DNA of 64,000 nt from Rhodospirillaceae bacterium (GTDB lineage Bacteria > Pseudomonadota > Alphaproteobacteria > Bin65): the NCBI GenBank assembly GCA_028819475.1, contig JAPPLJ010000060.1, forward strand, positions 1-64,000, given 5' to 3'. The notes beneath the pieces are model-generated. The model saw only the letters and a program-made list of their open reading frames with translations. It ran no database searches and was not told where the DNA came from. Position 1 is the stretch's first letter. The number at the start of each line of letters is the position of its first letter. Positions 1,279 through 13,067 of this stretch are shown here, one piece after another. The position numbers and the translations under genes are program-made.

Positions 1279-2730
1279 ATGACCGTACGCGTGAACTCCC
1301 GAGCCGATCTCACCCTCGAAGCGGCCCGGCGGGTCGCCTGGGAGGGCGAGGGCGTCGAACTCGGGCCCCGGGCGCTCGCGGCCATGGCGCAGGGCCGCGA
1401 CCGGCTGGAGCGCATCCTCGAGCACGATCCGGATGTCACGATCTACGGCGTGACGACGGGGCCGGGTCAGCTTGCCCGCGCCAGGCTGACCGCCGAGCAG
1501 CGCGCCCAGTGGGCCGGCATGTCGCCGGCGCGCGCCGCGGCCTCCTGGGGCGATCCGCTGCCCGGCCGCGCCGTGCGCGCCATCGTGCTTGCGCGGCTCG
1601 CCAACTTCGTCGAGGGCCATGCCGCGGTGTCGCCGGAGATCGCCTGCCGGGTCGCCGCCATGCTGGACGGAGATGACCTGCCCTTCGTGCCGGTGCAGGG
1701 CCACGGCGGGGCGGGCGAGATCCTGGCGCTGAGCCACCTGTTCACCGGCCTGGCCGAAGCCGGGCGGTTGGCGCCCAAGGACGTGATGTGCCTGATCAAC
1801 GGCTCGCCGGCGGCGGCCGGGCTCGTCACCGACGCCGCGCTCGCCGCCGCGGGGCGGCTGGAGGCGGCGGCGCGGATCTTCGCCCTGTCCTTCGAGGCCT
1901 TCAACGCGCCGCTCGGCCATCTCGACCCGGCGCTGGAGGGCTACTGGAACAATCCCCACGACACCTGGGCGCTGCAACGCCTGCGCGACCTGGTGGGCGA
2001 GGGCGACGAGGCCGGACGGCGGCCCTACCAGGCGCCGGTCAGCTACCGCATCCTGCCGCGCATGCTGGGCCAGGCCCGGCGCGCCGCGGCGCTGGCCGCC
2101 GAGGTCGCCGAAGAGTCGCTGCAGGCCGTGACGGACAACCCGGTGTGGATCGACGATACCGGCGAAGACCATCCCTTCGGCCGGTTCGTCTCGACCGGCG
2201 GCTATCACAATCCCCACGCCGCGCTCGCCATGGACGCGCTCGGCGCAGCCTGCGCCAATCTCTGCCTTCTCGCCGGGCGCCACGGTGCGAAACTGCTGGA
2301 CGGCAAGGTGTCGCTGCTGCCCGACCAGCTCGCCGACTCCGAAGACTTGGGCGATGTCCGCCGCGCCTATCTGGGCTGCCTGCCGATGGCCCAGACCGGC
2401 TACGAGGAGGAGGCCCGCCTCCACGCCCAGGCCACGCTGCTGCCGGGCAGCGAATCCGGCGGGTTCGGCCAGAACGACGTCGCGAGCCCGGTGTTCCTGG
2501 CCTGGTCGAAGCAGGACCGGGCCGGCCGCTGCCTCGACATGGCGCTCGCCAGCCTGGCGCCGATCGCCCTGCGCGCGCTGGACCTCACCGGCCGGCCGGT
2601 GCCGCCGCAACTGGCCGGGCTCGAAGCTGCGGTCCGCGAAGGCCTGCCCGATCCGATGCAGCCCGTAGCGCCCGGCCAAGCGGCGGCGTCGATCGCCGAA
2701 GCCCTGCGCCGGGGGATCTATCCATCGTGA
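1279..2730 (+). CDS. HAL/PAL-family aromatic amino acid lyase homologue without the MIO triad
   Basis: A 483-residue protein with the full-length fold of histidine/phenylalanine ammonia-lyases. Conserved landmarks are IYGVTTGPG with the catalytic-loop Tyr56, LINGS with Asn174 (Asn195 of HutH), the SYR Arg of the QAPVSYRILP stretch (Arg283 of HutH) and QNDV near residue 397. The electrophilic cofactor MIO is formed in this family from Ala-Ser-Gly. Here the matching stretch reads VQGHGGAGEILALSHL (residues 139-154), so the triad is Gly144-Ala145-Gly146 and the essential Ser is Ala. The DNA at 1681-1740 reads this unambiguously. HutH Glu414 is also Asn. Ordinary ammonia elimination is therefore unlikely, and either another reaction or a non-enzymatic role is inferred. 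No hut genes are nearby. Confidence 0.85.
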   Translation: MTVRVNSRADLTLEAARRVAWEGEGVELGPRALAAMAQGRDRLERILEHDPDVTIYGVTTGPGQLARARLTAEQRAQWAGMSPARAAASWGDPLPGRAVRAIVLARLANFVEGHAAVSPEIACRVAAMLDGDDLPFVPVQGHGGAGEILALSHLFTGLAEAGRLAPKDVMCLINGSPAAAGLVTDAALAAAGRLEAAARIFALSFEAFNAPLGHLDPALEGYWNNPHDTWALQRLRDLVGEGDEAGRRPYQAPVSYRILPRMLGQARRAAALAAEVAEESLQAVTDNPVWIDDTGEDHPFGRFVSTGGYHNPHAALAMDALGAACANLCLLAGRHGAKLLDGKVSLLPDQLADSEDLGDVRRAYLGCLPMAQTGYEEEARLHAQATLLPGSESGGFGQNDVASPVFLAWSKQDRAGRCLDMALASLAPIALRALDLTGRPVPPQLAGLEAAVREGLPDPMQPVAPGQAAASIAEALRRGIYPS

Positions 2731-3536: not shown

Positions 3537-3560
3537 ACATCAAACGGCTTCAGTGCTGCC

Positions 3561-3785
3561 ATGACCCAGCAGATTACCGCGCGTTTGCCGGATTCGGCGG
3601 TTGAAGCCCTGGACCGGGCCGCAGACAGCCTGCGGCGGAGCCGGGCCGAGGTCATCCGGCAGGCGGTGGAGCGCTACCTGGAAGATTTTGACGATCTTGC
3701 CGTTGCGATCGACCGGCTTCGCGACCCCCACGACCCGGTGCTGGATTGGGACACGGTCCGGCGTGACCTACTCGATTCGGATTAA
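3561..3785 (+). CDS. ribbon-helix-helix (CopG/RelB-like) antitoxin
   Basis: A 74-residue protein. The N-terminal TARLPDSAVEALDRAADSLRRSRAEVIRQAVERYL matches the RHH fold (one beta strand TARLP, then two helices with the RSRAEVIRQA turn). The acidic C-terminal tail DPVLDWDTVRRDLLDSD should wrap the toxin. Expected role: neutralise the RelE-type toxin encoded by the overlapping next gene and repress the operon through the palindrome on the promoter. Overlap with the toxin gene is 23 nt. Confident on family, not on exact subfamily. Confidence 0.85.
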   Translation: MTQQITARLPDSAVEALDRAADSLRRSRAEVIRQAVERYLEDFDDLAVAIDRLRDPHDPVLDWDTVRRDLLDSD

Positions 3786-4026
3786 GGCCAGCGCGGCGAG
3801 AGAACTCAGGCGCATCGCGGAACCGGAGCGGTCGAGGATCGTCGCGGCGATCGACCGGCTTGCGGAGAATCCGTTTCTCGGCAACGCGCTCAAGGGCGAT
3901 TTGAGGGGCCTGCGGCGGATTCGTGTCGGCGACCATCGGGTGCTTTACGAAATGCGCGACGATACGCTGGTCGTGCTGGTCGTGCGCGTTGCACACCGCC
4001 GGGATGCCTATCGCCGGAGACCGTAA
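3763..4026 (+). CDS. RelE/ParE-family toxin
   Basis: An 87-residue protein starting with GTG inside the end of the antitoxin gene. The start YSIRIKASAARELRRI, the middle NPFLGNALKGDLRGLRRIRVGDHR and the end VVLVVRVAHRRDAYRR follow the RelE pattern: central RVGDHRVLYE strand and C-terminal HRRDAY. RelE-type members cleave mRNA at the ribosome, whereas ParE-type members poison gyrase. The RxxxRVGDYRVxYE plus HRR-Y layout favours RelE. Translation is likely coupled to the antitoxin through the overlap. GTG was preferred because the frame upstream is only the shadow of the antitoxin gene. Confidence 0.85.
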   Translation: MTYSIRIKASAARELRRIAEPERSRIVAAIDRLAENPFLGNALKGDLRGLRRIRVGDHRVLYEMRDDTLVVLVVRVAHRRDAYRRRP

Positions 4027-4076
4027 CTGCGAAAGGCTGCCGGGGCCTCTGCCGGGTAAACGGGAGCGTGCCGAAC

Positions 4077-4136
4077 GCAATAATACCCAAAAAGATTTCT
4101 TAGATTGATTTGTTGAAATTTTTCTGTAATTCAATC
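4077..4136. promoter_or_regulatory. AT-rich putative promoter/operator of the Xre/RES module
   Basis: About 60 bp far richer in A+T than its surroundings, lying upstream of the Xre antitoxin gene. GATTGA (4103-4108) and TCAATC (4131-4136) form an inverted repeat around TTGTTGAAATTTTTC. It is a likely promoter with an operator, but no clean -35/-10 pair can be fixed. The remainder of 4027-4232 shows nothing else. Confidence 0.4.
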
Positions 4137-4232
4137 GAAGGCGGGTCTCGCGACCCGATCCGCGAAACCTGCGGGAGTCCGCACGATGCGCCCGGACATG
4201 CGCGCTGCAACACCGGCTCGAAAGGGCAGGGC

Positions 4233-4589
4233 ATGGCCGTAGCTGCCGAGCGATCGACGGCCGTTTCCCGCATGGTCGGCGAATTGCGCCGGTTGAGCGG
4301 CCTGAAGAATGTCGATCTTGCGAACATCGTCGGCGTCTCTCCGCCGACGGTCCACCGCTGGAGCCGCGGCCAGGGCAGCCCGACGATCGAAAAGCAGCAG
4401 GTCATCGCCGACCTCCGGTGGGTGGCCGAACGGCTGTCGGACTTCTACGAACCCGACGAAGCGCGCCTCTGGCTCCAGACGGGCCATCCGCAACTTGGCG
4501 GCGCGCGGCCGTACGACCTGATCAACGACGGCCGTATCGCGGACGTGCTGGAGGTGATCGACCGCCTGGAAAGCGGGGTCTATCTCTGA
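4233..4589 (+). CDS. Xre/MbcA/ParS-type antitoxin
   Basis: A 118-residue protein with an N-terminal helix-turn-helix (LKNVDLANIVGVSPPTVHRW, residues about 28-47) and a C-terminal MbcA/ParS-like part (FYEPDEARLWLQTGHPQLGGARPYDLI, then GRIADVLEVIDRL). Antitoxins of this family plug the NAD-binding site of the RES toxin encoded next. The stop TGA (4587-4589) is immediately followed by the toxin ATG. The start at 4233 was chosen because AAAGGGCAGG precedes it and because the in-frame sequence before it is not protein-like. It likely represses its own promoter through the AT-rich site upstream. Confidence 0.85.
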   Translation: MAVAAERSTAVSRMVGELRRLSGLKNVDLANIVGVSPPTVHRWSRGQGSPTIEKQQVIADLRWVAERLSDFYEPDEARLWLQTGHPQLGGARPYDLINDGRIADVLEVIDRLESGVYL

Positions 4590-5162
4590 ATGGCGGTCCG
4601 GCGCGCCGGTCACGAACTCGGTCTCCTCGATGCGCTGGCGGACCTCCCGGAAACGGTCTTCGACGGCGAATTCTGGCGCGCCGTGCACGGCGCAAGGTCG
4701 CCGCTCGACGGCTCGAAAGGCGCCGGCCGGTGGAATGTGCGCGAGAGCGAGGTGCTGTATTGCGCCCTGGAGCGGGACGGCGCGCTGTCGGAAATCTTCT
4801 TTCACATCAACCGCCAGCAATCGGTCTTTCCCAGCCGCCTGCGCTCGACGGTTCACCGCATGCGCGGCCGGTTCGGCAAGGCAATCGACCTGACCGGTAT
4901 GGCCCTGCTGGAACGGCTCGGCGTGGACCCGGCGCGCTATCGCGAGATCGTCTACGGCGACACGCAAAGGATCGGCGAGGCTGTGGGCTTTCTCGGCTTC
5001 GAAGCCATGCTCGTGCCGAATGCCCGGCACCCGAGCGTCAATCTGGTCGTCTTTCCGGCAAACTGCGACCTCGATGCGATCGAACGGATCGAGGCGGAGG
5101 CGGTCGATTGGGCGGAGTGGCGCCGCCGCCGGGCCGGCCGCGGCCGCGATGAAAGACCCTAA
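4590..5162 (+). CDS. RES-domain NAD-degrading toxin
   Basis: A 190-residue protein with the RES signature: Arg30 in FWRAVHG, the GAGRWN stretch (residues 44-49), Tyr57 in VLYCAL and Glu68 in LSEIFFH, at spacings like Arg27/Tyr58/Glu69 of mycobacterial MbcT. The conserved late Ser is plausibly in HPSVNLVVF. RES toxins degrade NAD+ (phosphorolysis or hydrolysis), stopping growth unless held by the partner antitoxin. Transcription and translation are coupled to the Xre gene (zero gap). The C-terminus ends in an Arg-rich tail (WRRRRAGRGR). Confidence 0.85.
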   Translation: MAVRRAGHELGLLDALADLPETVFDGEFWRAVHGARSPLDGSKGAGRWNVRESEVLYCALERDGALSEIFFHINRQQSVFPSRLRSTVHRMRGRFGKAIDLTGMALLERLGVDPARYREIVYGDTQRIGEAVGFLGFEAMLVPNARHPSVNLVVFPANCDLDAIERIEAEAVDWAEWRRRRAGRGRDERP

Positions 5163-6087: not shown

Positions 6088-7608
6088 ATGACGGCCAAAC
6101 CGCCCACACGGGAACAGATCGCGCGCGCCGCGGACACGCTCGGCCTTTCGCTCGAACCCGCCGATCTGGACGAATTCACCGACATGATCCGCGGCACGGT
6201 GGAGACCTATTACCGGCCGCTCGACCGGCTGCCGGACAACCTGCCGCCGGTCAAATATCCGCGCACGCCGGGCCATTTCCCGACCGACGCGGAAGACCCG
6301 CTGCGCGCCTGGTACGTCAAATCGACCATCGAGGGCAGCAAGCGCGGCAAGCTGCGCGGCAAGACGGTGGCGATCAAGGACAATATCTGCGTCGCCGGCC
6401 TGCCGATGATGAACGGCGCCTCGGTGCTGGAGGGCTATGTGCCGGAGGTCGACGCCACGGTGGTGACCCGCACGCTGGACGCCGGCGGCACGATTCTCGG
6501 CAAGGCCCATTGCGAGTATTTCTGCTATTCCGGCAGCAGCCATACCAACGCCCAGAAGACGACGCTCAACCCGCTGAATCCGGAATACACGCCGGGCGGT
6601 TCGTCCTCCGGCTGCGCGGCGCTGCTGGCGGCCGGCGAGGTCGATCTCGCCATCGGCAGCGACCAGGGCGGCTCGATCCGCGAGCCGGCGGCGTTCAGCG
6701 GCCTTGTCGGCATGAAGCCGACCTGGGGCCTGGTGCCTTATACCGGCGCGGCGTCGATCGAGATGACGCTCGACCATCTCGGCCCGATGAGCCGGACCGT
6801 CGAGGACAATGCGCTCTATCTGGAGGTGCTGGCCGGGGAAGACGGGCTCGACCCGCGCCAGTACACGCCGCGCACCGCGCGCTATACCCAAGCGCTGGGC
6901 CAGCCGGTCGCGGGCCTGCGTATCGGCGTCATGCAGGAGGGCTTCGGTTTCGAGGACAGCGAGGCGGATGTCGACGAGGCCGCGCGGGCCGCCGCGCAGG
7001 TCTTCGCCTCGCTGGGCGCGGCGGTGACGGAAATTTCCGTGCCGGCCCATCGCGAACTCGGCATGCCGGTCTGGGTGCCGATCGCCTGCGAGGGCGCCTA
7101 CGAGCAGATCCTCAAGGGGCTGGGCAACGGCCACAACTGGAAGGGCGCCTATGTGCCCAGCCTGCTGGAAAAGCTCAACGGCTGGCAGGCCAAGTCGAAC
7201 ATGTTCTCGGAAATCTTCAAGCTGGGGATGCTGTGCGCCGAGCACATGCGCACGGTCCATCACGGCCGCTACTACGCCAAGGCGCAGAATCTCAGCCGCC
7301 TGCTGCGCGCGGCCTACGATGCGGCGCTGGAGGACGTCGATATCCTGCTGACGCCGACCTCGCCGATCAAGGGCTCGAAGCTGCCGCCGGAAGACCGCAG
7401 CCGGGAGGAAGATATGGTGCCCGGCTTCACGCCGATCCCGAACACGGCGCCGATCGACTGCACCGGCCATCCGTCGATCAGCATTCCCTGCGCCATGCGC
7501 GGTGGATTGCCGGTCGGCCTGATGCTGACCGGGCGGCATTTCGACGAATCGACGCTCTATCGCGCCGCCCACGCCTTCGAGCAGGCGGTCGACTGGAAAT
7601 CGGTCTAG
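6088..7608 (+). CDS. amidase-signature amidase (nitrile-hydratase-associated type)
   Basis: A 506-residue enzyme of the amidase-signature family, R-CO-NH2 to R-COOH plus ammonia. The Ser-cisSer-Lys triad is visible: Lys97 in VAIKDN, Ser172 in PGGSSSG and nucleophile Ser196 in DQGGSIREPAAF. An N-terminal helical extension of about 75 residues, the NPLSAWYV-like EDPLRAWYVKSTI stretch and DQGGSIR rather than DTGGSIR place it with the enantioselective amidases found beside nitrile hydratases (Rhodococcus/Pseudomonas type). No nitrile hydratase gene is present here. The gene is followed at 79 bp by a dipeptide-type ABC transporter, so an imported amide or peptide-like compound is a likely substrate. 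A good GGAGG precedes the ATG. Confidence 0.85.
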   Translation: MTAKPPTREQIARAADTLGLSLEPADLDEFTDMIRGTVETYYRPLDRLPDNLPPVKYPRTPGHFPTDAEDPLRAWYVKSTIEGSKRGKLRGKTVAIKDNICVAGLPMMNGASVLEGYVPEVDATVVTRTLDAGGTILGKAHCEYFCYSGSSHTNAQKTTLNPLNPEYTPGGSSSGCAALLAAGEVDLAIGSDQGGSIREPAAFSGLVGMKPTWGLVPYTGAASIEMTLDHLGPMSRTVEDNALYLEVLAGEDGLDPRQYTPRTARYTQALGQPVAGLRIGVMQEGFGFEDSEADVDEAARAAAQVFASLGAAVTEISVPAHRELGMPVWVPIACEGAYEQILKGLGNGHNWKGAYVPSLLEKLNGWQAKSNMFSEIFKLGMLCAEHMRTVHHGRYYAKAQNLSRLLRAAYDAALEDVDILLTPTSPIKGSKLPPEDRSREEDMVPGFTPIPNTAPIDCTGHPSISIPCAMRGGLPVGLMLTGRHFDESTLYRAAHAFEQAVDWKSV

Positions 7609-7687
7609 CGCGGCATTTGTACAGCGGCGCCGGTTGCTGTTACGGTGTCGCCGGAATCTTACGTCATCGCACAAGGAGGAGGGTTCA

Positions 7688-9214
7688 ATGCGTAGACGCA
7701 CTTTGATTGCCGGCGTGGCCGCCGGCGCCGCGGCCGTTCTGGCCGTTGCCGGGTCGCTGGCGCCCCAGGCCCAGGCCGCGAAGGACAGCGTGGTGATCGC
7801 CTGGCAGGTCGATCCCCAGACTTGGGATCCGAACAAGCGGACGGTTCCGGTCCGGCAATCGCTCTACAAGATGGTCTACGACCAGCTGCTCACGCAGGCG
7901 CCGGACATAAAGCTGGAGGCGTCGCTCGCGACGAAATGGTCCCAGTCGGCGGACGGCAAGACCGTGACGCTGGACATCCGGGACAACGCCTACTGGCACG
8001 ACGGCACCAAGGTGACGTCGGCCGATGTCAAATACACCTTCCTCGAACGCGGCAAGGCGGGCCACAAGATCGACCTCGTGCGGATTTGGCGCAACGTCGC
8101 CGATATCGAGACCCCGACGCCGACCCGCGCGGTCATCAAGCTGAGCAAGCCGATGGCGACGGCGATCCCGTGGCTGGCGTTCCTGGCCAACTTCGTGGTG
8201 CCGAAGCACCATGTCGAGAAGGTCGGCGCCGACGGCTTCGCCGACAAGCCGATGGGCAGCGGGCCCTACAAGGTCGTGGACTATCAGCGCAACTCGCGCA
8301 TCGTGCTCGAAGCCTTCGACAAATACTGGGGGCCGAAGCCGAAAATCCGCAAGGTGACGATCCTGATCATGAAGGACCCGTCGGCCCGCGTCGCGGCGGT
8401 CCAGTCCGGCCGGGTCGATTTCGCGCCGGACGTGCCGATTCGCGAAGTCGGACGGCTGGACAAGATGGCGGCGCTGAGCGGCCGGATCTTCCCGATCTCG
8501 CGCGTGATCCTGCTGCAGATCCGCAGCGACAAGGCGTTCGCCGACAAGAATGTCCGGCTGGCCGCACATCACGCGATCAACAAGAAGGCGATTTCGCAGG
8601 CGCTCTATGCCGGCAAGGCGGTGCCGCTGTCGATCGTCGCGCCGCCCGGCACGCCCGGCTATGTCAAGGATTTCGAATTCCCCTACGATCCGGCGAAATC
8701 GAAGGCGCTGCTGGCGAAATCCGGTTTCAGCACCGACAAGCCGCTCAAGATCGGCATGGCCAGCTTCAACGGCAATTTCCCCGGCGACTACGACATCGCC
8801 CGGGCGATCGTCTCGATGTGGAAGAAGGTCGGCATCGAGGCCAATCTGCAGGTGATCGAGTACTCGAAATATTTCGAGCTCAACCGCGGCAACAAGCTGC
8901 CGGAGGCGACTCTCTACAGCTGGGACAACGCCGTCGGCGACCCGGAGATGTTCACCGGCTACCTGATGCATCCGAAGCTGCCCTTCTCGGCCTGGAAGGA
9001 CATGGATGTCGGCGGCCGGGTGATGAAGCTGTTCGGCGTCGTCGACTATGACAAGCGCATCCAGGGCTACAAGGATGTTGCCGTCTACGCGTCGAAGCAG
9101 GGCGCCGTCATGCCGCTGCTGCAGTCCGTGATCACCTGGGTCCACAAGAGCGATCTCGGGGTGGTGCAGTACAACAACGGCTGGGCGCTGCCCCAAACCT
9201 GGTCCTGGAAATAG
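7688..9214 (+). CDS. ABC transporter substrate-binding protein, peptide/opine family
   Basis: A 508-residue periplasmic protein of the SBP_bac_5 (DppA/OppA) family. An AAGGAGGAGGG ribosome site precedes the ATG. The signal peptide has RRR, a hydrophobic Ala/Val core and ends near AQA at residue 31. Family landmarks include WHDGTKVTSADVKYTFLE and MGSGPYKV. It captures the ligand (di/oligopeptide, opine or a similar amide) and hands it to the permeases encoded next. Its gene is separated from the permeases by a strong stem-loop, which usually keeps the binding protein in excess. The ligand cannot be read from sequence; the amidase upstream suggests an amide. Confidence 0.9.
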   Translation: MRRRTLIAGVAAGAAAVLAVAGSLAPQAQAAKDSVVIAWQVDPQTWDPNKRTVPVRQSLYKMVYDQLLTQAPDIKLEASLATKWSQSADGKTVTLDIRDNAYWHDGTKVTSADVKYTFLERGKAGHKIDLVRIWRNVADIETPTPTRAVIKLSKPMATAIPWLAFLANFVVPKHHVEKVGADGFADKPMGSGPYKVVDYQRNSRIVLEAFDKYWGPKPKIRKVTILIMKDPSARVAAVQSGRVDFAPDVPIREVGRLDKMAALSGRIFPISRVILLQIRSDKAFADKNVRLAAHHAINKKAISQALYAGKAVPLSIVAPPGTPGYVKDFEFPYDPAKSKALLAKSGFSTDKPLKIGMASFNGNFPGDYDIARAIVSMWKKVGIEANLQVIEYSKYFELNRGNKLPEATLYSWDNAVGDPEMFTGYLMHPKLPFSAWKDMDVGGRVMKLFGVVDYDKRIQGYKDVAVYASKQGAVMPLLQSVITWVHKSDLGVVQYNNGWALPQTWSWK

Positions 9215-9233
9215 GCCCTGAAACGCCGGTAAT

Positions 9234-9273
9234 GCGCGCGGCCCGGCGGAGAACATCCCGCCGGGCCGCCGCG
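9234..9273 (+). promoter_or_regulatory. stem-loop between binding-protein and permease genes
   Basis: CGGCCCGGCGG and CCGCCGGGCCG pair around a 7-8-nt loop, with further G/C pairs outside. There is only a weak T-rich tract after it, so it is more likely a 3'-end stabiliser or partial terminator than a full terminator. It should give more binding protein than permease. Confidence 0.6.
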
Positions 9274-9341
9274 TTGCCGGTTTTCCTTCTCTTCCCGGCC
9301 GCCGCTTGCGCGCCTGTGCGCGCGGGCCTTATGTCTGCCCG

Positions 9342-10361
9342 ATGAGCGGCGAAATCCTCGGCATCGTGTTGCGCCGGATCGCGGTCGCGATCCCGCTGAT
9401 GCTGCTCGTCTCGATCCTGGTCTTCATCGTGCTGCGGCTGATTCCGGCCGATCCGGTGGCCATGTCCATGCCGCCGAACGCGACGAACGAGGATATTGAG
9501 GCACTGCGGCGCGAAATGGGCCTGCACCTGCCGGTCATGCACCAGTATGCGATCTGGCTCGGCCACATCCTCGAAGGCGACCTGGGCCGGTCCATCGCCT
9601 TCGGGCAGCCGGTTTTCAAGCTGATCGGCCAGTCCCTGCCGGCGACCATCGAACTCGCGGTTTTCGGCGCCCTGTTCGCGACGGCGATCGGGCTGCCCGG
9701 CGGCATTCTCCTGTTCCGGCTGCGCGGCCGGCCGTCGGAGCAGGCGGTCGATGTCGGCAGCACGCTGATGATGTCGATCCCGGAATTCCTCTGGGCGCTG
9801 TTCCTGATCCTGGTCTTCGGCGTCGCGTTCAACCTGCTGCCCTTCGCCGGCCGCCTGCCGCCGGACATGACGATTCCCAGGGTCACCGGTTTCCTGCTGC
9901 TCGACTGCCTGCTGACCGGCGACCTCACGGCCTTCTTCGAAGCGATCCGGCACATGCTGCTGCCGGCGCTGGCGCTCGCGCTCGGCACCGTGCCGCTCAT
10001 CATGCGCCTGCTGCGCTCCAGCCTGCTCGACGTGATCGGCGAGGATTATGTCACGATGGCGCGGCTGCGCGGCGTGCCGGAGCGCCGGGTGGTCAACCGC
10101 CACGCCCTGCGCAACGCGCTGCTGCCGACCCTGTCGCTGATGGGCGTCCAGTTCGGCTTCCTGTTCGGCGGCACGCTTCTGGTCGAGGTCATCTACTCCT
10201 ATCCCGGCCTCGGCAACCTGATGGTCGAGGCGGTGCGCAATACCGACCTGCCGATCATCCAGGGCGCCGCGCTGGTCTTTGCGCTGGCCGTGCTGACCAT
10301 CAACCTGGCCGTCGACGTGGTCTACATCGTCGTCAACCCCAAGCTGCGGCGGGCCCGGTGA
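9342..10361 (+). CDS. ABC transporter permease, DppB type
   Basis: A 339-residue inner-membrane permease. It has an N-terminal transmembrane helix (IAVAIPLMLLVSILVFIVLRLIPADP), the family LGL..P.. pattern (MGLHLPVMHQYAIWLGHILEGDLGRS), five further hydrophobic segments and the EAA cytoplasmic loop DYVTMARLRGVPERRVVNRHALRNALLP that contacts the ATPase. It pairs with the following DppC-type permease, whose GTG start overlaps its stop. The ATG at 9342 was preferred over one 36 nt upstream because it begins the family-typical region. Confidence 0.9.
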   Translation: MSGEILGIVLRRIAVAIPLMLLVSILVFIVLRLIPADPVAMSMPPNATNEDIEALRREMGLHLPVMHQYAIWLGHILEGDLGRSIAFGQPVFKLIGQSLPATIELAVFGALFATAIGLPGGILLFRLRGRPSEQAVDVGSTLMMSIPEFLWALFLILVFGVAFNLLPFAGRLPPDMTIPRVTGFLLLDCLLTGDLTAFFEAIRHMLLPALALALGTVPLIMRLLRSSLLDVIGEDYVTMARLRGVPERRVVNRHALRNALLPTLSLMGVQFGFLFGGTLLVEVIYSYPGLGNLMVEAVRNTDLPIIQGAALVFALAVLTINLAVDVVYIVVNPKLRRAR

Positions 10362-11248
10362 GCGCGGAATTGGCAATGAGCGCGGCGGCCGTCGCCGGCG
10401 AGAGCCCGCTCCGGCGCGCCTTGCGGTCGGGCCGCGTCGTCGTCGGCGGGTCGATCCTGCTCATCTTGCTGTTCTGCGCCGCCGCCGCGCCGCTGATCGC
10501 CCCCTACGATCCCAACGAGCAGGACCTGCTCAACGCGCTCAAGGGGCCGTTCTGGACCGACAATGCCGAGCCGGGCTTCTGGCTCGGCACCGACAATCTC
10601 GGCCGCGATACCCTGTCCCGGCTGATCTACGGCACAAGGGTCGCCCTGTTCGTGGCGGTCTGCGCCGCGGTCGGCACGATGCTGATGGGCACCGCGCTGG
10701 CCCTGCTCGCCGGCTATTTCGGCGGCGTGATCGACTGGCTGATCTCGCGCGCCGTCGACCTGTGGATGTCCTTCCCGCCGGTCGTGCTGTCGCTGATCCT
10801 GATCGTCGGCTTCGGCGTCGGCATCGGCAACGTCATCCTGGCGATCATCCTGGTCGACTGGACGCGCTTCTGCCGCGTCGTGCGCAGCGAGGTGCTGGTG
10901 ATCCGCCGGCAGAATTATGTCGATGCCGCCCGGCTCTCCGGCTTTTCCCACATGCGCACGATGGTGCGCGAGGTGCTGCCGGCCGCCGCGCCGACGATCA
11001 TCACGCTGATGAGCCTGGAGATGGGCATCGCCGTGATCGTCGAGGCGATCCTCAGCTTCGTCGGCATGAGCGTCGAGGCGAGCATCCCGGCCTGGGGCGT
11101 GATGATCGCCGACGCGCGCAACTACATGTACCAGTCGGCCTGGGGGCTGGTGCTGCCGATCCTCGCCATCGTGACGACCGTGCTCGCCTTCAACCTGCTG
11201 GGCGACGGTCTGCGCCGGACCTTCGACGCCCGGCTGCAGCAGCACTGA
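10358..11248 (+). CDS. ABC transporter permease, DppC type
   Basis: A 296-residue permease with the DppC N-terminal layout: one transmembrane segment, then APYDPNEQD, LGTDNLGRDTLSRLIYGTR, several membrane helices and an EAA loop (NYVDAARLSGFSHMRTMVREVLP). The GTG start overlaps the previous stop by 4 nt (GTGA), and an ATG 18 nt inside is a possible alternative. It is the partner of the DppB-type subunit in the dipeptide-type importer. Confidence 0.9.
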   Translation: MSAELAMSAAAVAGESPLRRALRSGRVVVGGSILLILLFCAAAAPLIAPYDPNEQDLLNALKGPFWTDNAEPGFWLGTDNLGRDTLSRLIYGTRVALFVAVCAAVGTMLMGTALALLAGYFGGVIDWLISRAVDLWMSFPPVVLSLILIVGFGVGIGNVILAIILVDWTRFCRVVRSEVLVIRRQNYVDAARLSGFSHMRTMVREVLPAAAPTIITLMSLEMGIAVIVEAILSFVGMSVEASIPAWGVMIADARNYMYQSAWGLVLPILAIVTTVLAFNLLGDGLRRTFDARLQQH

Positions 11249-11258
11249 GCGCCCTGTC

Positions 11259-13067
11259 ATGACGCTCCTCGCCCTCAACGACGTCAACGTGACGACCGAG
11301 GCCGGCGGCCGGCGGATCGACGTGCTGCGCGATGTCTCGCTGGCCGTCGGCCGGGGCGAGCTGGTCGGCGTCGTCGGCGAATCCGGCGCCGGCAAGTCGA
11401 TGGTCGGCCGGCTGATCGCCGGCATGCTGCCCAGGGGTTTCGCAACGAGCCGCGGCAGCGTGACCTTCCTCGACCGCGACCTGCTGGCCATGGCGCCGCG
11501 CGAGCGCACCGGCCTGCTCGGCGACGCCATCGCCTTCGTGCCCCAGCACCCGATGACGTCGCTCAACCCGGTCCTGTCGCTCGGCGCCCAGTTCGACGAG
11601 CATCTCCGGCGTCTCGGCCGGGACGGCAAGGCGGCGCGGCGCGAACGGGCGCTCGCCGCGCTCGATTCGGTCCATCTGCCGCGCCCGGCCGACCTGCTCG
11701 GCCGCTTTCCGCACCAGCTTTCCGGCGGCCAGTGCCAGCGCGCGCTGATCGCCATGGCCTTCGCCGGCAAGCCTGACCTGATTATCGCCGACGAGCCGAC
11801 CACGGCGCTGGACGTCATCACCCAGGCGCGGGTGATGGAGCTGATCGACGAATTGCAGCGCGACAGCGAGACCGGCCTGCTCTTCATCACCCACGATCTG
11901 CGGCTGGCGGCGCAGCATTGCCAGCGCCTTGCCGTGATGTATGCCGGCGAGATCGTCGAGACCGGGCCGGCGGCGGCGCTGCTCAGCGATCCGCTGCATC
12001 CCTATACGCGCAGCCTGGTCGCCGCCAATCCCGGCATCGCCGGGCCGGTGCGCCGGCTGGCCGCGCTGCCCGACCACATGCCGGGCCTGAGCGGTTTCGC
12101 CGACCTGCCCGGCTGCCGCTTCGCCCCGCGCTGCCCGGTGCGCGACGAGGCCTGCGCCGCCGCCCGCACGGCGCTGACCGAGGTTGCGCCGGGCCGGTTC
12201 GTGCGCGGCGCCGGGGCGTGCATGAAACAGGCGTCGGCGCTGGCCGGGCAGGGCGACCTGCCCCGCGCCGCGGCCGACGCCGCCGCGCCGCCGATCCTGT
12301 CGGTCGACGGGCTGGGCAAGACCTTCCGCTCCGGCCGCAACTGGCTCGGCCGCCGCCGCGCGCCGGTGGTCGCGGTCGACGGGGTGAGCCTCGACATCGC
12401 GCCCGGCGAATTCGTCGGCCTGGTCGGCGAGAGCGGCAGCGGGAAATCCACCGTCGCCCGCCTGCTGCTCGGCCTCGAAACGCCGGACGGCGGCCGGATT
12501 GTCGTCGACGGGCAGGACATCACAGGCCCGTTCCAGCGCACCGCGAAGCAGCGAATCGCGCTCATCCAGATGATCTTCCAGGACCCGCAATCGGCCCTCA
12601 ACCCGCGCCAGCGCATCGGCCGGCTGGTGACCCAGTCGATGGAGGTGCGCCGCCCGCCGGCGCGCTGGCCCGAGCGGCTGGAGCGCGCGCGCGACCTGCT
12701 CGGCCAGACCGGCCTGCCCCAGGACACGATCGGCCGCTATCCGGTGCAGGTCTCCGGCGGCCAGCGCCAGCGGGTCAACATCGCCCGGGCGCTGTGCACC
12801 GCGCCCAAGGTGCTGGTCGCCGACGAGATCGTCTCGGGCCTCGACGTGTCGGTGCAGGCGCAGATCCTCAACCTGCTGCTCGACATGCGCGCGCAGATGC
12901 AGATCTCCATGCTGTTCATCAGCCACGACCTCTCGGTCGTGCGCTACCTGTGCGGCCGGGTCGCGATCATGAACCGCGGCCGGATCGTCGAACAGGGCCC
13001 GACCGAGCAGGTCTTCCGCGCGCCGCAGCACGACTATACGAAGGCGTTGCTTGCGGCTGTGCCGTAG
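11259..13067 (+). CDS. fused DppD-DppF-type ABC ATPase
   Basis: A 602-residue protein with two complete ABC ATPase domains in one chain. First domain: Walker A GESGAGKS with Lys46, signature LSGGQCQR, Walker B IIADEPTTALD, and a DppD-type C-terminal Cys-rich stretch (PGCRFAPRCPVRDEAC). Second domain: Walker A GESGSGKST with Lys396, signature VSGGQRQR, and VADEIVSGLDVSVQ as Walker B. It powers the two permeases encoded just upstream. Fusion of D and F is a known variant in proteobacteria. The gene starts 10 bp after the permease and ends the operon. Confidence 0.9.
   Translation: MTLLALNDVNVTTEAGGRRIDVLRDVSLAVGRGELVGVVGESGAGKSMVGRLIAGMLPRGFATSRGSVTFLDRDLLAMAPRERTGLLGDAIAFVPQHPMTSLNPVLSLGAQFDEHLRRLGRDGKAARRERALAALDSVHLPRPADLLGRFPHQLSGGQCQRALIAMAFAGKPDLIIADEPTTALDVITQARVMELIDELQRDSETGLLFITHDLRLAAQHCQRLAVMYAGEIVETGPAAALLSDPLHPYTRSLVAANPGIAGPVRRLAALPDHMPGLSGFADLPGCRFAPRCPVRDEACAAARTALTEVAPGRFVRGAGACMKQASALAGQGDLPRAAADAAAPPILSVDGLGKTFRSGRNWLGRRRAPVVAVDGVSLDIAPGEFVGLVGESGSGKSTVARLLLGLETPDGGRIVVDGQDITGPFQRTAKQRIALIQMIFQDPQSALNPRQRIGRLVTQSMEVRRPPARWPERLERARDLLGQTGLPQDTIGRYPVQVSGGQRQRVNIARALCTAPKVLVADEIVSGLDVSVQAQILNLLLDMRAQMQISMLFISHDLSVVRYLCGRVAIMNRGRIVEQGPTEQVFRAPQHDYTKALLAAVP

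Follow-up and report, generated by a model that had tools for sequence, protein, structure and literature searches.

A conserved alphaproteobacterial branch of the histidine ammonia-lyase family without the MIO-forming serine, and its candidate role in betaine breakdown

The usual task of the MIO group in histidine, phenylalanine and tyrosine ammonia-lyases is to turn ammonia into a leaving group, and its formation requires the side chain of a Ser. The window analysed here, a stretch of 64,000 nucleotides from a Rhodospirillaceae bacterium, carries at 1279..2730 of the forward strand a homologue of aromatic amino acid lyases in which that Ser is gone. Because MIO needs this side chain, the protein should be unable to build the group. 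This raises the questions of whether the change is real and, if so, what reaction such a lyase may catalyse.

The gene encodes 483 amino acids from an ATG start and matches PF00221 with 198.8 bits (cut-off 27.3). In the HMMER alignment to Pseudomonas putida HutH (1gkj, loop GSVGASGD), a GGAGEI loop (residues 143-148; 1705..1722, +) stands in place of the MIO-forming GASGDL, with Gly144-Ala145-Gly146 (1708..1716, +) facing HutH Ala142-Ser143-Gly144, as the initial annotation had read it. One residue is missing before these three positions, and about 20 residues are deleted after the loop, relative to HutH. For the remainder of the active site, we followed the numbering and roles of the HutH residues. 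Tyr56 (HutH Tyr53; 1444..1446), Asn174 (Asn195; 1798..1800), Gln251 (Gln277; 2029..2031) and Arg257 (Arg283; 2047..2049), all on the forward strand, are retained. The Tyr, Asn and Arg had already been listed as kept, and the alignment to HutH bears this out, as do 51 of 51 clade rows. Glu147 (1717..1719, +) corresponds to HutH Asp145. Three further active-site residues of HutH, not remarked on before, are altered: a residue other than His is found in the His83 region, Val254 replaces Tyr280 and Asn399 replaces Glu414. Asn399-Asp400 (2473..2478, +) faces HutH Glu414-Asp415, and Asn or Asp occupies position 399 in 50 of 51 rows.

An AlphaFold2 model built from 53 rows (pLDDT 90.1, pTM 0.92) predicts that the window protein has a complete lyase fold. 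The top matches of the model among solved structures are tied, namely tyrosine aminomutase (Z 38.1), the ergothionase 6s7j (Z 37.7) and HutH (Z 37.5), over more than 460 residues. Compared with the MIO enzymes (HAL, PAL, TAL), the protein has the domain, the predicted fold and the Tyr, Asn, Gln and Arg residues (51 of 51 rows each), and carries Gly-Ala-Gly instead of Ala-Ser-Gly. Its score against the NCBIfam HutH model TIGR01225 is 143 bits, below the cut-off of 539.15. No NCBIfam model scored above its cut-off for the window protein, for six copies from the multi-copy genome G481, for the lyase of locus L106 or for that of Rhizobium jaguaris.

The lyase clade without MIO is real and conserved. 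A search of genome contigs found 33 loci, nearly all in assemblies labelled as alphaproteobacterial metagenomes, and GGAGEI occurs in all 31 of those that bear the loop, across separate assemblies. Near-copies and partial rows (e.g., L001-L006, L013, L027, L038, L042, L045) were excluded before the clade was aligned. Position 145 holds Ala in 46 of the 51 clade rows, Pro in 3 and Ser in 2, and G146, E147, Y56, N174, Q251, R257 and D400 are invariant. The dN/dS of the window gene against five orthologues is 0.175-0.244, in keeping with the earlier view of a full-length gene with a good start and no decay. Five of the six other genomes of the window's genus that were searched have the gene, at 82-97% identity, the exception being G006. 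The clade extends, at 37-54% identity, to more distant members from rhizobia, including R. jaguaris and R. tropici plasmids, and from other alphaproteobacteria.

A family tree had been proposed at the outset, and in it the clade with the Gly-Ala-Gly-type loop stands apart from the MIO enzymes with a branch support of 100. The tree has 84 rows, comprising 53 GGAGE sequences (rows 1-53 of the 55 in the clade alignment), 16 MIO enzymes and 15 members of a second Ser-less group with the loop GSVGYL; the ergothionase 6s7j is not among them. By a quick method, the separating branches are supported at 100, 98 and 98. The GSVGYL group joins the MIO enzymes, so, provided that the midpoint root is correct, the Ser was lost on two occasions. 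The clade is a lineage of the histidine ammonia-lyase family, widespread in bacteria, that has lost the self-made catalytic group.

How freely the loop can vary is seen in G481, an alphaproteobacterial genome of marine type (2.7 Mb, 7 contigs), in which the stretches analysed encode 28 HAL-family proteins. Twenty-four belong to the lyase clade, two are more diverged and Ser-less with GE at the loop, and two have a full GSVGASGD. Clade genes stand in tandem, five in L110 and six in L111, with further loci at L131-L141. The position of the MIO Ser is Ala in 13 of the 24 copies, Pro in 6, Ser in 4 and Glu in 1; Tyr56, Glu147 and Asp400 are present in 24/24 and Asn174, Gln251 and Arg257 in 23/24. 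Varying loop letters alongside conserved site residues fit a loop freed from making MIO. The same genome has seven urocanase-like proteins. One of them, next to the tandem in L110, exceeds the cut-off for S-methyl-thiourocanate hydratase (890.8 bits, cut-off 880), and another exceeds that for thiourocanate hydratase. The latter (963 bits) adjoins a HAL with the complete GSVGASGD at L135:3814-8606, where an MIO lyase may feed thiourocanate.

We favour, with moderate confidence, the reading that the clade consists of MIO-independent lyases of the HAL/PAL fold that take trimethylamine (or another quaternary-ammonium group) off an imidazole betaine, most likely converting histidine betaine (hercynine) to urocanate. 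Here the identity of the substrate and of the leaving group is inferred, as are the functions given to individual residues. In this scheme, the lyase would eliminate the quaternary group from the alpha carbon of the betaine, and the urocanate made from hercynine would enter the hut pathway. The MIO Ser would be dispensable because trimethylammonium, unlike ammonia, is already a leaving group, and the Tyr/Asn/Gln/Arg frame that places the substrate carboxylate and the base would be retained. Urocanate can be reached in one elimination from two substrates, from histidine with loss of ammonia or from histidine betaine with loss of trimethylamine. Histidine betaine has been reported from a cyanobacterium, according to an excerpt of PMC3826126. 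No paper on a hercynine lyase came up in searches of open-licence literature, and none that joins hercynine to both urocanate and trimethylamine or to hutU.

The product is suggested by the hut clusters of relatives. In L024, HutF, HutI, HutG, HutC and HutU are followed by the lyase in the place of HutH, and every Hut protein exceeds an NCBIfam cut-off. This succession of gene families is repeated in L041 (HutI above the cut-off, HutU 945 bits). L018 and L027 have a HutC-HutU-lyase arrangement, and in L018 the urocanase and lyase genes overlap by four bases. An apparent urocanase-lyase fusion in L027 (an open frame of 1062 codons) was rejected, since the coordinates place two genes in different frames. 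HutU of L018, L024, L027 and L041 reaches about 945-950 bits with the urocanase model and about 700 with that of thiourocanate hydratase, for which the cut-off is 930. Given that the linked HutU is a canonical urocanase, the product of the lyase at these loci should be urocanate. HutH was not found in the genomes of L018, L020, L024, L027 and L041, where the best matches (74-80 bits against the cut-off of 539) are the lyase itself. Among 18 further lyase-bearing genomes, HutH is above the cut-off in 9, two of which look like repeats (G768/G769 of G004/G002, with the same coordinates), and in the other 9 none is above it. Both the lyase and a full MIO HutH occur in the window genome (G000), G002, G003 and G004; the HutH of G001 lies in pieces on different contigs. 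In the window genome the MIO HutH lies in a normal hut cluster elsewhere.

Betaine uptake and methylamine genes point to the leaving group. At L020, an OpuAC betaine-binding protein is encoded immediately upstream of the lyase, and ProW- and ProV-like proteins share a divergent operon with a TMAO demethylase that scores 1250 bits (cut-off 1100); L019 and L030 have parts of this arrangement. Betaine-type ABC transporters adjoin the lyase in L019, L020, L030 and partly L027 and, in the distant branch, in R. jaguaris L080, where ProV-ProW-ProW-OpuAC lies downstream of the lyase and the ergothioneine-type catabolic genes ErtD and ErtE are divergent, as are UbiD and UbiX. ErtD/ErtE at L080 and the S-methyl-thiourocanate hydratase at L110 also count in favour of the imidazole-betaine reading. 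A tally of 50 loci, which are not independent, counted a betaine ABC transporter at 5, HutU at 5, HutC at 4, a betaine-aldehyde-dehydrogenase-like ALDH at 4, UbiD/X at 4, TMAO demethylase at 2 and ErtD/E at 2. It omits L045, L099, L100 and L101 and includes same-genome pairs (L022/L041, L105/L106, L110/L111).

We also surveyed 385 genomes of the class, in which the lyase occurs in 17, TMAO demethylase in 34 and trimethylamine monooxygenase in 21. TMAO demethylase is found in 12/17 lyase-positive and 22/368 lyase-negative genomes (p 1.4e-10), and trimethylamine monooxygenase in 9/17 and 12/368 (p 1.2e-8). Counted by genus, the corresponding figures are 6/10 vs 15/266 (p 1.6e-5) for the demethylase and 3/10 vs 9/266 (p 0.006) for the monooxygenase. 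All these p values overstate the association, since the genomes share ancestry and a large number of them may come from the sea. A common marine habitat may account for part of the co-occurrence of lyase and demethylase. Neither the lyase nor TMAO demethylase nor trimethylamine monooxygenase is present in G006.

Histidine betaine is favoured because betaine uptake genes accompany the lyase in two distant branches, because of the link to the demethylase, and because the window genome has a normal HutH. Our confidence is held to a moderate level by several observations. HutU and betaine ABC genes each accompany the lyase at only 5 of 50 clade loci. In G752 and G753, which have the clearest hut clusters, TMAO demethylase did not exceed its cut-off (best 189 and 192 bits). 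Several HutH-less genomes have no HutI above the cut-off, HutI falling short in the profile scan of G750, G751, G758, G759, G760 and G754. Finally, the window copy is isolated: among the close neighbours on its strand YjbR alone has a match, and no hut, betaine or TMAO-demethylase genes adjoin it. Ergothioneine was considered as the substrate in the window species and is disfavoured because no thiourocanate hydratase exceeds the cut-off in the window genome, where the sole urocanase scores 700 bits against 930.

Downstream of the lyase (3541-5162), reading alone suggests two gene pairs that resemble toxin-antitoxin modules, one RelE-like and the other Xre/RES-like. At 6088-13067 there follow an amidase (PF01425) and a family-5 importer of the peptide/opine ABC type (PF00496), whose permease and ATPase genes were assigned by reading. 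At L107, a substrate-binding protein similar to that of this importer comes after the lyase.

Of the alternatives, the one that survives best, although we consider it unlikely, is that the lyase expels a good leaving group from another betaine or related compound, perhaps one that has no imidazole ring. The links to hut genes would then apply to some orthologues only. A UbiD-type decarboxylase and/or UbiX lies beside the lyase in L080, L081, L106 (directly upstream) and L107, and at these four rhizobial-branch or related loci UbiD/UbiX is unexplained by a histidine-betaine pathway. Rhizobial-branch loci have UbiD/UbiX and ErtD/ErtE rather than HutU, the 24 diverged copies in G481 suggest many substrates, and the window copy lacks pathway neighbours. 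However, lyases linked to HutU in the close clade share 76-80% identity with the window protein, which makes a common substrate likely, and imidazole pathways are the best-linked contexts.

Somewhat less likely still is a true histidine ammonia-lyase that dispenses with MIO, takes ammonia off histidine through another form of acid/base catalysis, and has taken over from HutH in some genomes. The position of the lyase in the HutF-I-G-C-U cluster of L024 would be explained directly, as would host genomes without a canonical HutH, G752 and G753 among them also being without TMAO demethylase above the cut-off. Against this, the window genome and G002-G004 retain a full MIO HutH alongside the lyase, betaine transporters and TMAO demethylase adjoin close orthologues, and the equivalents of HutH His83, Tyr280 and Glu414 are absent. 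In addition, a MIO-less PAL with the Ser-to-Ala change served as a blank lacking the essential group, according to an excerpt of PMC3903478. The stronger form of this idea, in which the clade displaced HutH within complete hut clusters and deaminates histidine by plain acid/base catalysis with no electrophilic cofactor at all, seems to us more doubtful again.

The initial annotation had suggested either a different chemistry or a regulatory or binding role. The first is the best reading; the second, a non-catalytic protein, we regard as very improbable. The loss of the MIO Ser would be compatible with it, but Y56, N174, Q251, R257, E147 and D400 are invariant (51/51 rows), the lyase fold is predicted to be complete, relatives lie in catabolic clusters with HutU or transporters, HutH is replaced in some genomes, and G481 keeps the site residues in 23 or 24 of its 24 copies. 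A sequencing error or decaying pseudogene has practically no chance and is rejected for the clade by GGAGEI in 31/31 loci of separate assemblies and by a dN/dS of 0.18-0.24, and nothing about the window copy favours it. In G159 (L050 / L079), a distant copy has an in-frame stop, and the lyase would be lost or broken there.

If the elimination from histidine betaine is correct, the self-made electrophile disappeared from the HAL fold on at least two occasions, in step with a switch from ammonia to trimethylamine as the leaving group. Also implied would be an unnamed route by which sponge-associated, marine and rhizobial bacteria break down histidine betaine, together with a source of trimethylamine so far unassigned. 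The clade makes an old question testable, namely what MIO is needed for, and such proteins are easily mis-annotated as histidine ammonia-lyase.

Among known systems, the window protein resembles HutH in its PF00221 domain, its predicted fold (Z 37-38), the equivalents of Tyr53, Asn195, Gln277 and Arg283, and, through L024, its place in a hut cluster. It differs from HutH in the missing Ala-Ser-Gly, the deletion after the loop, the replaced equivalents of His83, Tyr280 and Glu414, and the 143 bits against 539.15. The GSVGYL group (L051, L052, L064, L071 and others) belongs to the HAL family and likewise lacks the MIO Ser. However, it forms its own clade joining the canonical HALs, keeps the His83 and Glu414 equivalents, and lacks the triplet by deletion. 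In this group (L052, L064, L071 and 12 other loci), two of the three proteins scanned exceed the NCBI histidine ammonia-lyase subfamily cut-off (550 and 535 vs 524), and so would be named HutH without the MIO Ser.

The closest functional parallel may be ergothionase (ergothioneine trimethylamine-lyase, Treponema denticola, 6s7j), which an excerpt of PMC13405746 describes as a HAL relative that has no MIO and releases trimethylamine. An MIO-less member of the fold is thus not unprecedented, and a HAL fold without MIO would be common to ergothionase and, by prediction, the window protein. The predicted model matches 6s7j with Z 37.7 over 465 residues (rmsd 2.2, 20% identity). The sequence match is weak, E 2.7e-4 by single sequence and 9.4e-14 by profile, and HALs score better. 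The partner hydratase also differs, being in the orthologues a canonical urocanase and not a thiourocanate hydratase, none of which exceeds the cut-off in the window genome. The best explanation is that these lyases work like ergothionase yet probably form a separate, unnamed clade. Most simply, quaternary-amine elimination would have been invented a second time on the HAL fold in this clade.
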